The position numbers were made by a program, and so were the translations under genes. This document shows positions 11,275 to 27,043 of a stretch of DNA of 35,561 nt, piece after piece; the stretch's first letter is position 1, and each line of letters begins with the position of its first letter. The notes beneath the pieces are model-generated. The model was not told the DNA's origin. It saw only the letters and a list, made by a program, of their open reading frames with translations, and did no database searches. Origin of the DNA: Gammaproteobacteria bacterium (GTDB taxonomy: Bacteria > Pseudomonadota > Gammaproteobacteria > GCA-001735895); contig JAJDOF010000039.1 in NCBI GenBank assembly GCA_022340305.1, forward strand, positions 1 through 35,561, read 5' to 3'.

Positions 11275-12495
11275 ATGATCATAATACCAGAGATACAGAT
11301 TCAGGGCGGTAAGGTAATCACACGCAGTGCCATCGAGGGCGATGATACCGTCCACGATATCTCGCCAGCAGAAGCGCTGCATAAATTTGTCGCCGATGGT
11401 GCGCAAATGCTGCAGATCGTCGATGTCGATGCGGCCCGGGGGAAGCCTGAGCGCAACGTGGAGTTGATCAAGCAGCTGATCAATGAAACCGATGTGCCGA
11501 TCCAGGTCGCCGGCGGCATTCGCACCCTGTCGCAGATAAACGACTGGTTCGAAGCCGGCGCTGCTCGCGTTGTGCTTGGTACCGTTGCCATTACTGATTC
11601 ACCACTGGTCGTGCAGGCGGCCAGCAGGCATCCGGGCGGTATCATCGTGCACCTGGCCACACGCGGTGGATACGTCATGATCGACGGCTGGAAAACCCAG
11701 ACCGCATTCAAACCACAGGACCTGATTCGCGATCTGCAGATGACCGGAATAGCCGGGGTCGTGCACAAGGGTACCGAAAACCTGGAAACGGATTTTGACG
11801 AGGCTGTGGCGCTTACCGAGCAACTCAGCCACGACGTCTCGATCCCCGTGTATTCCAGTGGCACGGTGCAGAACCTTGACGACATTGCACGGCTGCGTTA
11901 CCTGCCGAATATCAATGGCGCGATTATCAGCCACGCGTTGATGACCGGGCGCATCAATCTCCGTGACGCCTTGCGGGTTGCGGCCGAAAAGGAAACCAAT
12001 CTCGAACCCGAATCCATCACCAGCAACGTCAACATGGGCATACATCACGGTGTACGCGCTTATCTTGCCGCCTACAACAGTTCGCAGGCGGCGCGCGTCT
12101 GGAATCTCGCCTTGCGCGATATGTTGACCGAGGATAACCCCTATATGGAAGTGCTGATCCCCCAACATGATCTTGACATCGACATTGAAACGCTGTCACC
12201 GCGCGAGCTACAGGCCTGCTACGAGGCCGAACTCGACAAGTCCGATATCGTGATCGTTGTTCTCGAAGGTGTCGAGTCAGAAGCCTGGACTGGATTTGAA
12301 TGTGGTTATGCGCGTGCGCACGGCAAGTATATTTATGGCATCACTTCGCTGCAATCCGTCAAGGGACCGAGCCAGCGGCGCTTCGAAGCCATGTGCGACG
12401 AGTTGATCCAGTTCAGTGCAGGCGACGATGTCACCAAGGCCCATGCAGAGATTTCGCACCAACTGGCAACCCGGGTCATGGTGAAGAACCAGTAA
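11275..12495 (+). CDS. HisA-like TIM barrel fused to nucleoside 2-deoxyribosyltransferase-like domain
   Basis: A 406-residue two-domain protein. Residues 1-235 follow the HisA (ProFAR isomerase) barrel: start MIIIPEIQIQGGKV, LQIVDVDAARG (47-56), the first phosphate loop AGGIRT (79-84), and IDGW (136-139). The catalytic Asp near residue 8 is Gln8, the second Asp (SLD-x-R in HisA) is Ala128, and the DGT phosphate motif is missing, so isomerase activity is unlikely. Residues 260-358 resemble NDT/nucleoside N-glycosidases: RAYLAAYNSS, KSDIVIVVLEG and GFECGYARAHGKYI, with Glu342 at the nucleophile position and an acid (Glu336) at the position of the second NDT acid. No other his genes are nearby. 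Function is unknown; a nucleotide- or ribosyl-binding N-glycosidase is my inference. Confidence 0.85.
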   Translation: MIIIPEIQIQGGKVITRSAIEGDDTVHDISPAEALHKFVADGAQMLQIVDVDAARGKPERNVELIKQLINETDVPIQVAGGIRTLSQINDWFEAGAARVVLGTVAITDSPLVVQAASRHPGGIIVHLATRGGYVMIDGWKTQTAFKPQDLIRDLQMTGIAGVVHKGTENLETDFDEAVALTEQLSHDVSIPVYSSGTVQNLDDIARLRYLPNINGAIISHALMTGRINLRDALRVAAEKETNLEPESITSNVNMGIHHGVRAYLAAYNSSQAARVWNLALRDMLTEDNPYMEVLIPQHDLDIDIETLSPRELQACYEAELDKSDIVIVVLEGVESEAWTGFECGYARAHGKYIYGITSLQSVKGPSQRRFEAMCDELIQFSAGDDVTKAHAEISHQLATRVMVKNQ

Positions 12496-24352: not shown

Positions 24353-24859
24353 TCAGGCCGCGTGGATCAGCTTTTCCAGGTTTGACAGGGTCTGCAGGCA
24401 GGCGCGCGCCGCTTCGCGCCCCTTGATCTTGAAGTGTTCATGGAAGAAGGTCTGCTGGGCCTCGGTTTCCTGAAACTGGTGTGGCGTGAGTACGATCGAC
24501 AATATAGGTACCTCGGTTTGCAGCTGAACCTGCATCATCGCATCGAGTACCGTAGCGGCAACGAAATCGTGCCGGTAAATGCCTCCGTCCACAATGAAAC
24601 CAGCAGCAACGATTACCGGGTAGATACCGGTTTTTGCCAGCAACTTGGCCTGCAGCGGAATTTCCAGGCTACCGGGTACCTCGAATAATTCAATGTCAGA
24701 CCCGGCGAGGCCCGCGACTTCACACTCCTCGACAAAGGAGCGATAAGCCTGGGATACGATTTGCCGATGCCAGCCGGCCTGAATGAAAGCGACCTTGCGT
24801 CCCGTGGGCAGCGAGGCGAAGGCATTGTGCTGCGGGTTGTTACTGTTGAACTGATCCAT
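24353..24859 (-). CDS. ribH: 6,7-dimethyl-8-ribityllumazine synthase, type II
   Basis: Lumazine synthase condenses the pyrimidine diamine with dihydroxybutanone phosphate in riboflavin synthesis. The 168-residue product has FELFEVPGSLEIPL-type substrate-loop sequence (about 58-69), AAGFIVDGGIYRHDFVA with catalytic His97, and VLTPHQFQE. These are signatures of the decameric type II enzymes described in Brucella and Mesorhizobium (RibH2), not the icosahedral RibH1. Other rib genes are absent. The start follows AAAAGG. An FMN riboswitch occupies the leader, so expression should fall when FMN is plentiful. Confidence 0.93.
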   Translation of the reverse strand: MDQFNSNNPQHNAFASLPTGRKVAFIQAGWHRQIVSQAYRSFVEECEVAGLAGSDIELFEVPGSLEIPLQAKLLAKTGIYPVIVAAGFIVDGGIYRHDFVAATVLDAMMQVQLQTEVPILSIVLTPHQFQETEAQQTFFHEHFKIKGREAARACLQTLSNLEKLIHAA

Positions 24860-24935
24860 ATCGATACCTTTTAGCTGGATGCTGGATCAGGGCGACGGGA
24901 ATGCGCCACGCGCAGGAAGCTGCACGACCTTCCCA

Positions 24936-25087
24936 TTCTCTATCGTCCGGACTGTGACCGTCGGCTTCGGTTTTTCACCGAATCTGCTGACCCTTTGAAC
25001 CATGCCCAAAGGCGCTCGCGGGCTTGTGCATTCCCTGCCGGGACTGGGCACTTACCGCCGGTGGGGAATTGCACCCCGCCCCGAGAA
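24936..25087 (-). promoter_or_regulatory. FMN riboswitch (RFN element) controlling ribH
   Basis: Read on the minus strand, the leader carries the conserved RFN blocks in order: TTCTCGGGGCGGGGTG, then ACCGGCGGTAA, AGCCCGCGAGC, CGGTG-AAAAACCG, GCCGACGGTCACAGTCCGGA, and the closing GAGAA. The first TTCTC pairs with the last GAGAA as P1. About 76 bases separate the aptamer from the ribH ATG. That stretch has a GGAAG/CTTCC stem but no T-run, so control is more likely at translation initiation than by termination. Confidence 0.95.
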
Positions 25088-25090
25088 TTT

Positions 25091-25119
25091 TGCTGCCAAT
25101 GGCAGCGCGCGCCAGTATA
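25091..25119 (-). promoter_or_regulatory. ribH leader promoter and 5' stem
   Basis: TATACT on the minus strand (25119-25114) places the transcript start near 25107, about 20 bases before the aptamer. Between them a GCTGCC-N3-GGCAGC hairpin (25105-25091) would cap the 5' end of the RNA. Confidence 0.5.
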
Positions 25120-25291: not shown

Positions 25292-27043
25292 ATGTCCGAA
25301 AAACAGAACCAGCGCAGGCTTTCCGCTATTCTGGCCGCTGATGTGGTCGAATATACCCTGCGCATGGAACGCGATACGGAGGGTACCGTGGCCGCCTGGC
25401 AGGATGCCCGACGTGCGGTGATCAATCCTACGGTCGGCGCCTGTCGCGGCAAAATCGTCAAGTTGACCGGTGATGGTTTTCTGGTGGAATTTTCGACCGT
25501 ACTGGACGCCGTCAACTGTGCTGTCGATTTGCAGCGGGGCCTGGCATCCAGCGCACTGGATTTTCGCATCGGTGTAAACCTCGGAGACGTGATCGATGAT
25601 GGTGAGGATATCCATGGTGAAGGCGTCAATATCGCGGCCCGCATCGAGGCGCTTGCAGATCCAGGTGGTATCAGTATATCCGGCGGCGTTTTTGAACAGG
25701 TACGCAACCGTGTGGATCATCTTTTCGAAGACTTCGGAGAACACCGGCTCAAGCATGTTACTACGCCGGTACAGGTGTGGCGCTGGGCAGCGGAGGGTCC
25801 GCTGCACAAGATGGTGGCGGAGGCGATTGTTGACGAAAAGCTGCCTCTGCCCGACAAACCCTCGATTGCAGTGTTGCCGTTTGACAATATCGGTGCCGAT
25901 CCGGAGCAGGAGTATTTTTCCGATGGCGTTACCGAAGACATCATTACCGAACTGTCGAAGATTTCCGGCCTGTTCGTGATCGCCCGTCATTCTGTATTTG
26001 TCTATAAGGACCAGAAAATTAACCTCAGGCAAGTGGGCAAGGATCTTGGCGTGCGCTATGTGCTTGAAGGCAGCGTGCGCAAGGCGGGTAACCGGCTGCG
26101 AGTATCATCACAGCTCATCGATAGCCGCAACGATAGCTGCCTGTGGGCCGAGCGCTACGATCGTGAACTGGAAGACATTTTTGCAATCCAGGATGAAGTG
26201 GCACACAACGTCGCCGAGGCCCTTAAGGTGGTTTTGAGGCCGGGCGAAGAAGCGAGTATCAACCGCCCGCCAACCCACAATATCGAAGCCTACGACATCT
26301 ATCTGCGAACCCGTTCTTCGCTATATCCACCGACTCGAGAAAACCTGTTGACCGCGGGCAGTGCCTATCGCCGTATCTGCGACATCGACCCGGGCTTTGC
26401 AGGCGGTCATGCCGGCCTGTCTCTGACGCATAGCTATATGGTCATTTTTGGACTGGCTGAAAATACTCGCCAGGACGCAGACCGGGCACTGGAACTGGCC
26501 AGGCTGGCGGTGTCCATAGATGCTCATTTTGCATTTGCCTACTCGGCACTCGGGCTTGCGCATCTCGCCGCTGGACAACATCAACTGGGAGTCGAATACA
26601 CGCGCTGTGCAATAGACCTGCAACCGGGTAACGCCGACGTACAGGTGTTTTCAGCCATTTCATGTATGTTTGCCGACCATATCGATGCTGCCTATGAGGC
26701 CGTAACCACGGCGCTTCGTCTCGATCCACAATACGTGCGAGGGCCGTATCTGAATATACTTGGGATGGTTTGCTTCTGTGGTGGACGTTATCAGGAAGCG
26801 ATTGATACCTTTCGGCAGAACACCGATCGAGGCGGACCCATCGGTCCGCCTGCCCTGGCGTTTCGCACCGCGGCCTACAGCGCGGACGATCAAATGATGC
26901 AAGCCCGCGCTTCGGCGCAGGAGTTGCTTAGTTTCTTTCCGGATTTCACGGTGTCAAAATTCAAGATGCCGACACTGTTCGCAAACCGTGACGATACCGA
27001 GCGACTCTGCAACGCTCTACGCGCGTCCGGTTTGCCCGAGTGA
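25292..27043 (+). CDS. Class III adenylate/guanylate cyclase with TolB-like and TPR regions
   Basis: A 583-residue soluble protein. Residues 8-165 form a class III cyclase domain whose catalytic set looks intact: Asp17 (AADVVEYT) and Asp61 (TGDGFLVEF) for the metals, Lys57, Asp106 in DIHGEGVN, and Asn113 and Arg117 for the transition state. Residues 188-315 (SIAVLPFDNIGADPEQEYFSDG... EGSVRKAGNRLRV) match the TolB-like region common after such cyclases. The rest is TPR-like, e.g. PGFAGGHAGLSLTHSYM and FAYSALGLAHLAAGQHQLGVEY. No membrane segment is present. GCGAGGTATAG precedes the ATG. The nucleotide specificity (cAMP or cGMP) and signal are unknown. Confidence 0.9.
   Translation: MSEKQNQRRLSAILAADVVEYTLRMERDTEGTVAAWQDARRAVINPTVGACRGKIVKLTGDGFLVEFSTVLDAVNCAVDLQRGLASSALDFRIGVNLGDVIDDGEDIHGEGVNIAARIEALADPGGISISGGVFEQVRNRVDHLFEDFGEHRLKHVTTPVQVWRWAAEGPLHKMVAEAIVDEKLPLPDKPSIAVLPFDNIGADPEQEYFSDGVTEDIITELSKISGLFVIARHSVFVYKDQKINLRQVGKDLGVRYVLEGSVRKAGNRLRVSSQLIDSRNDSCLWAERYDRELEDIFAIQDEVAHNVAEALKVVLRPGEEASINRPPTHNIEAYDIYLRTRSSLYPPTRENLLTAGSAYRRICDIDPGFAGGHAGLSLTHSYMVIFGLAENTRQDADRALELARLAVSIDAHFAFAYSALGLAHLAAGQHQLGVEYTRCAIDLQPGNADVQVFSAISCMFADHIDAAYEAVTTALRLDPQYVRGPYLNILGMVCFCGGRYQEAIDTFRQNTDRGGPIGPPALAFRTAAYSADDQMMQARASAQELLSFFPDFTVSKFKMPTLFANRDDTERLCNALRASGLPE

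Follow-up and report, generated by a model that had tools for sequence, protein, structure and literature searches.

A HisA-like barrel fused to a nucleoside 2'-deoxyribosyltransferase-like domain in one gammaproteobacterial genus

The fusion gene and its two active sites

Contig JAJDOF010000039.1 of a Gammaproteobacteria bacterium (assembly GCA_022340305.1), analyzed over positions 1 to 35,561 and referred to here as the window, carries on its forward strand a gene (11275..12495, ATG start) for a protein of 406 amino acids (aa), in which a HisA-like barrel is joined to a domain of the nucleoside 2'-deoxyribosyltransferase (NDT)/DNPH1 superfamily. Residues 1-237 (11275..11985) form the (beta-alpha)8 barrel, residues 238-257 (11986..12045) a linker for which the predicted local distance difference test score (pLDDT) falls under 50 at residues 242-257, and residues 258-406 (12046..12492) the C-terminal domain; these parts, and all codons given below, are on the forward strand.

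The pairing had been proposed in an original prediction made from the DNA letters, and it was borne out by Pfam profiles and by the predicted fold. Pfam His_biosynth matched residues 3-227 with 144 bits (E 5.8e-42), and the barrel was also recognized in the AlphaFold2 model and by fold matches in the PDB, where the HisA/PriA entries among the 50 matches listed had TMt values of 0.78-0.90. The score for the NCBIfam HisA equivalog TIGR00007 was 149.1 bits versus a cut-off of 228.95, which was not reached. Pfam Nuc_deoxyrib_tr matched residues 263-359 with 30.9 bits (cut-off 28.8, E 3.2e-7) and the C-terminal domain alone with 33.3 bits; Nuc_deoxyri_tr2 scored 27 bits on the fusion, under its cut-off of 30. 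Nuc_deoxyrib_tr was matched at E up to 0.01 by all 58 rows of the C-terminal domain alignment, own sequence included. At the fold level the domain belongs to the NDT/DNPH1 superfamily, since it passes both the Pfam Nuc_deoxyrib_tr cut-off and the fold comparison; an assignment outside the NDT superfamily, named beforehand as counter-evidence, did not emerge. Both domains were modelled well in the full-length AlphaFold2 prediction (mean pLDDT 82.8).

Residues of the barrel were counted in 21 copies from the genus and in 120 listed homologues, mostly close relatives, and the Salmonella HisA numbers of D7, D129 and D176 were taken from a numbered pairwise alignment. Gln8 (11296..11298) stands at the place of D7, which we take to be an active-site Asp of HisA; it is Gln in 20 of the 21 copies, His in the other, and Gln in 119/120 homologues. 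At the place of D129 lies Ala128 (11656..11658), with Ala in 17, Val in two, Thr in one and Ser in one copy, and Asp in none of the 21 or the 120. Both exchanges had been predicted, and the alignment restored Asp at neither position. The original prediction spoke of two catalytic aspartates, and both are indeed gone, but a third one, D176, is also lost; its place is taken by Leu170 (11782..11784; Leu 15, Met 5, Asn 1 of 21), in a loop that had been regarded as no more than a phosphate motif. PMC9088769 names D176 as the catalytic Asp of Salmonella HisA, and by Salmonella HisA residue numbers it sits in the SRDGT loop. As foreseen, the second phosphate motif is missing: the TDISRDG loop of HisA is replaced in the fused barrel, and position 166, the conserved Asp of TDIS that is still Asp in the HisA of the same genome, is Gly in 15, Ala in three, Asn in two and Asp in one copy. 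The SGG and GRAL motifs of HisA have become SGT (21/21) and mostly SHAL. On the alignment, it is concluded that the three HisA active-site aspartates D7, D129 and D176 are lost from the fused barrel. Other positions at strand ends are filled by conserved residues, namely His164 in 21/21 copies and Gln8, His126 and Lys165 in 20/21 each.

Residues that hold the far end of the HisA substrate are mostly retained. Arg83 (11521..11523) occupies the place of the distal-phosphate gripper R83 of HisA (Arg in 20/21, Lys in copy L035; 119/120 homologues), Thr103 (11581..11583) that of the gripper S103 of HisA or T105 of PriA (Thr in 20/21, Pro in L033; 120/120), and Trp139 (11689..11691) that of W145 of HisA/PriA (Trp in 19/21, Leu in L042 and Gly in L048; 119/120). 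According to PMC9088769, R83 and S103 (T105 in PriA) hold the distal phosphate of phosphoribosylformimino-5-aminoimidazole carboxamide ribotide (ProFAR), and W145 stacks on ProFAR. Projected in space from the alignment, the half of the pocket for the non-reactive phosphoribosyl-imidazole therefore appears mostly kept and the reactive half remodelled. The proposal that the barrel was repurposed to bind a phosphoribosyl ligand fits with the retention of the distal-phosphate residues.

The active site of the C-terminal domain was compared in an alignment of six family members with two NDTs of solved structure. Tyr263 (12061..12063) aligns with the active-site Tyr of NDT/DNPH1 enzymes (human DNPH1 Y24; Tyr in 21/21 copies and in 34/36 covering rows of the larger C-terminal domain alignment), which in these enzymes, as Y24 of DNPH1 or Y7 of CtNDT, positions the Glu. 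This Glu is present as Glu342 (12298..12300), at the nucleophile position (human DNPH1 E104), and is kept in 21/21 copies, as predicted, and in 58/58 rows. Tyr316 (12220..12222) stands where NDTs have their catalytic Asp (D80 of human DNPH1; presumably D72 in the NDT of L. leichmannii) and is Tyr in 21/21 copies and 57/57 covering rows; the profile alignment, which opens a 3-residue gap there, likewise leaves no Asp. Trp338 (12286..12288) takes the place of the NDT Gly (21/21; 58/58), which gives a Trp-x3-Glu spacing of W338 and E342 in 58/58 rows of the C-terminal domain. In a pattern scan, the Trp338 place read Ala for L098 and L102 and Gly for L099, the register being doubtful. Position 336, six before Glu (D92 in L. 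leichmannii NDT, S98 in DNPH1), is variable, with Glu in 46, Lys in six, Thr in two, Ala in two, Gly in one and another residue in one of 58 rows.

Judged by these residues, the C-terminal active site is not that of a standard NDT. Ordinary deoxyribosyl transfer is doubtful because the Asp is an invariant Tyr316, the D92/S98 place varies and Trp338 replaces Gly, and the earlier description of the domain as deoxyribosyltransferase-like was not supported in that form.

Distribution, origin and selective constraint

With the whole protein as query (E up to 1e-40), 24/41 genomes of the order matched, all from the own genus (24/31 genomes) versus 0/10 from two other genera of the order; some copies are missing or partial owing to draft genomes. 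Among 398 phylum-wide genomes (own included), the fusion was restricted to the own genome, which was also the only one matched by a profile of the C-terminal domain at E up to 1e-4; barrel-only matches with 36-37% identity were found in two of the 398. A contig scan with six exact peptides, the sole check of breadth outside the phylum and one that reaches close relatives, returned 24 stretches with 17 confirmed loci, of which 16 were titled Gammaproteobacteria and one was the Olavius algarvensis Gamma 3 endosymbiont. The fusion of this endosymbiont (L008/L035) has 412 aa, and its last residues differ from those of the other 20 aligned copies. In L016/L047 and L049 the match falls in two reading frames within the C-terminal domain, reflecting a split gene or an assembly error.

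The first protein search with the fusion was evaluated for the best 120 of 1342 matches. Two homologues 84-86% identical to the query, P0034 and P0050, carry the source names Pirellulales and Planctomycetota and are probably mis-binned gammaproteobacterial contigs. A search with residues 246-406 gave 61 matches of 89-282 aa, 59 of which carry the NDT Pfam domain. Fourteen of the 61 were inspected, and 13 were short, eight starting with barrel residues and five inside the C-terminal domain; by their sequences these 13 look like truncated fusions. Both folds are already known, and no paper on the pairing of such a barrel with an NDT domain was found in the open-access full texts searched.

On another contig of the own genome, two full genes of the HisA/HisF family lie side by side, which by sequence are the canonical hisA and hisF; no NDT-family match besides the fusion was found in this genome. 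Canonical HisA is present in 27/31 genomes of the genus (one partial) and in all 17 good ones. Since HisA is retained across the genus, the fusion does not replace it. At G000:C40:1-150 (L021), an extra piece of a His_biosynth-family gene (41.1 bits) lies at a contig end, besides hisA, hisF and the fusion.

A search with a barrel-only relative gave 656 matches, and the best 120, mostly proteins of 247-248 aa, were examined. The organisms named among these 120 belong to genera such as Sulfitobacter, Aliiroseovarius and Ruegeria; Sulfitobacter and Aliiroseovarius are Rhodobacterales. All 120 listed paralogues of this type, a family that comprises L025, L026 and P0186-P0305, have Glu8 and Asp128, and 93/120 have Asp at the D176 place. 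In both genomes checked, the HisA-like paralogue is accompanied by a canonical HisA. No paper on this paralogue was recognized by title or abstract start among the open-access matches listed. In a 54-row tree with 18 paralogues, 8 fused barrels and 27 HisA sequences (26 of 29 extracted plus the own one), paralogues and fused barrels formed one group apart from HisA, with a support of 99/95 (100/99 without HisF) and with a warning of the tree program that long branches meet. Two residues near position 212 that are present in the own HisA are missing from L025, L026 and the fused barrel. Because the trees group the fused barrels with the Rhodobacterales paralogue and because these residues are missing from both, the fused barrel likely descends from an already diverged HisA paralogue and not from the HisA of the genus itself.

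Selective constraint was compared over 171 pairs of 19 genomes that have a full-length fusion and HisA; from the 24, two frame-split fusions, one partial fusion, one genome with a partial HisA and one without HisA were dropped. Mean pairwise identity was 76.9% for the barrel, 74.6% for the C-terminal domain and 81.0% for canonical HisA, and the barrel was more conserved than HisA in 38/171 and the C-terminal domain in 34/171 pairs. The ratio of nonsynonymous to synonymous substitution rates (dN/dS) was calculated for the 51 pairs in which dS was finite for barrel, C-terminal domain and HisA alike, and medians were taken from dS values between 0.05 and 1.5, which resulted in 0.095 for the barrel (27 pairs), 0.092 for the C-terminal domain (15 pairs) and 0.069 for HisA (34 pairs). 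Purifying selection acts on both halves, slightly weaker than on HisA. The ORF and both domain halves are real, and since the fusion is conserved through one genus and under purifying selection, it is not a chance artefact.

Surroundings of the gene

Upstream of the fusion gene lie homologues of nudix, tRNA_Me_trans (mnmA) and DUF489, the last of which we take to be hflD, followed by a divergent low-molecular-weight (LMW) phosphatase gene. Downstream, on the opposite strand, genes for a DUF4156 lipoprotein, a class I aldolase, a GST, a lytic transglycosylase and a Lyase_1/FumaraseC_C protein were found. The fusion gene sits between the divergent phosphatase gene and the convergent lipoprotein and aldolase genes and looks monocistronic; a scan for a sigma-70-type promoter found none. 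None of the 30 ORFs scanned in the window is a his gene, in agreement with the original prediction.

The aldolase gene is kept at 17/22 fusion loci and the phosphatase gene at 14/22, some loci being cut by contig ends. At the distant locus L017, the lipoprotein and transglycosylase genes are kept downstream, and exonuclease VII and molybdopterin oxidoreductase genes lie upstream; L053 and L054 adjoin cation ATPase and pirin genes. Operon or neighbour logic was considered as a clue to function, and the neighbours scanned gave no functional hint. They also lend no help to the roles in salvage, repair or signalling put forward in the original prediction, which are speculative. A defence island was likewise rejected, with no match of PADLOC models at E up to 1. 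On viral contigs, 33 stretches matched a pattern and 0 were confirmed.

Elsewhere in the window, a flavin mononucleotide (FMN) riboswitch (24931-25092, reverse strand, 103.3 bits) directly precedes the gene of a lumazine synthase homologue (DMRL_synthase; 24353-24859, reverse strand) on its upstream side, and the forward strand at 25292-27043 encodes a protein that has TPR repeats and weakly matches adenylate/guanylate cyclase.

Possible functions and likeness to known systems

The reading preferred here, with a probability of roughly 0.42, is that a HisA-derived barrel binds a ligand and is coupled to a divergent N-glycosidase; ligand, substrate and the coupling itself are all putative. The barrel would grip the phosphate of its ligand via R83 and T103 and could stack against the base in the non-reactive half of a ligand resembling ProFAR, for example aminoimidazole carboxamide ribotide (AICAR ribotide) or another nucleotide. 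Glu342 may act as the nucleophile that attacks C1' of a nucleoside or nucleotide and cleaves the N-glycosidic bond. Tyr316 and Trp338 would reshape leaving-group protonation and base choice, so that the substrate would presumably not be an ordinary 2'-deoxynucleoside, and the ligand bound in the barrel might regulate or feed the glycosidase domain.

Several observations weigh against this reading. According to PMC10603095 and PMC10483697, D80 of DNPH1 protonates the leaving base, and its counterpart is absent from the C-terminal domain, which may therefore have lost glycosidase activity. The stacking Trp of the barrel is missing from the diverged copies L042 and L048, in most pairs of genomes both halves evolve more quickly than canonical HisA, and the constraint and residue counts come from one genus and are non-independent. 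Because the predicted TM-score (pTM) of the full-length model is 0.56 and the linker is weak at 242-257, the mutual placement of the two halves is uncertain. Finally, no link to nucleotide metabolism was seen among the scanned neighbours beyond the nudix gene five genes away.

The loss of three HisA acids, the missing D80 equivalent and the lack of an operon partner among the loci compared would also be expected if both halves were non-catalytic and the protein were a nucleotide sensor or scaffold whose active sites have turned into binding sites. This is a somewhat unlikely alternative, as Glu342 and Tyr263 are kept in 21/21 copies at a dN/dS of ~0.09, and a pure binding site need not keep a nucleophile. 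Slightly less probable still, the barrel could itself be an enzyme with a new chemistry carried by Gln8, His126, His164 and Lys165, with the C-terminal domain acting on its product. The conserved residues at the strand ends speak for such a chemistry, but no HisA-family enzyme with this residue set was met in the analysis and no known reaction fits.

The spacing of Trp338 and Glu342 raises the idea that the C-terminal domain is a TIR-type NADase or cyclase, which acts on nicotinamide adenine dinucleotide (NAD) or a related dinucleotide and is switched on by the barrel ligand. This is improbable: no TIR profile matched the fusion at E up to 10 (above about 0.1, most matches are lost to the HMMER filters), no PADLOC model did at E up to 1, and the surroundings of the locus are stable in most members of the genus. 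The Tyr beside Glu is a trait of NDT/DNPH1 enzymes, whereas Phe or Ala is usual at this place in TIRs with NADase activity (PMC11204291), and TcpC with the same Trp yields a non-cyclic product. A bolder variant, more improbable again, is a self-contained nucleotide-signalling enzyme: the HisA barrel would be the receptor of a phosphoribosyl- or ADP-ribose-like ligand and would switch a hybrid NDT/TIR-type site, made up of the NDT Tyr and the TIR Trp-x3-Glu, by which NAD or a similar dinucleotide would be cleaved or cyclised. If true, TIR-like chemistry would here serve housekeeping and not defence, and the two enzyme groups would be linked. That the protein is an ordinary HisA extended by a tail, as source names of some homologues such as 'phosphoribosylformimino-5-aminoimidazole carboxamide ribotide isomerase' imply, is already contradicted by the TIGR00007 score (149.1 versus 228.95 bits), the three lost Asp, the separate canonical HisA in the genome and the trees, which place the fused barrel outside HisA.

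Under the preferred reading, the fusion would be a natural case of a repurposed enzyme, a barrel without its chemistry that has mostly kept its grip on the non-reactive half and is joined to a base-cutting domain whose active site has been rewritten as well. Should a histidine or purine intermediate be the ligand, the protein would act between those pathways as a sensor that has so far gone unrecognised. On its residues, the labels of some databases, histidine enzyme and nucleoside transferase, are both unsafe for the fusion. A Trp-x3-Glu in an NDT-type pocket also allows a direct test of the features that set deoxyribosyl transfer apart from NAD chemistry of the TIR type.

Compared with HisA/PriA, the fused barrel has the same fold, the GGIR and LGT loops with R83 and T103, and the stacking Trp (19/21); it differs in that D7, D129 and D176 are Gln/His, Ala/Val/Thr/Ser and Leu/Met/Asn, respectively, and in scoring below the HisA equivalog cut-off. 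The HisA-like paralogue of Rhodobacterales, which its sources call either 'HisA/HisF-related TIM barrel protein' or HisA, shares 30-36% identity with the fused barrel over 25 aligned members, but has no C-terminal domain and has Glu8, Asp128 and mostly Asp at the D176 place. For the C-terminal domain, the best match by both sequence profile and fold is the nucleoside 2'-deoxyribosyltransferase of Desulfotalea psychrophila (7o62), with which it shares the Tyr, PQxD and the Glu; the Asp of 7o62 eight before the strand Asp is Tyr316 in the fusion, and its DDG ahead of the Glu corresponds in the fusion to a variable residue, Ala and Trp. The deoxynucleotide N-hydrolase DNPH1 (Rcl) differs from the fusion, which has Tyr at the Asp80 place and varies at the place of the phosphate-binding Ser98. 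TIR-domain NADases have the same Trp-x3-Glu spacing and may have a related fold, whereas the fusion has no TIR profile match and carries the NDT Tyr.
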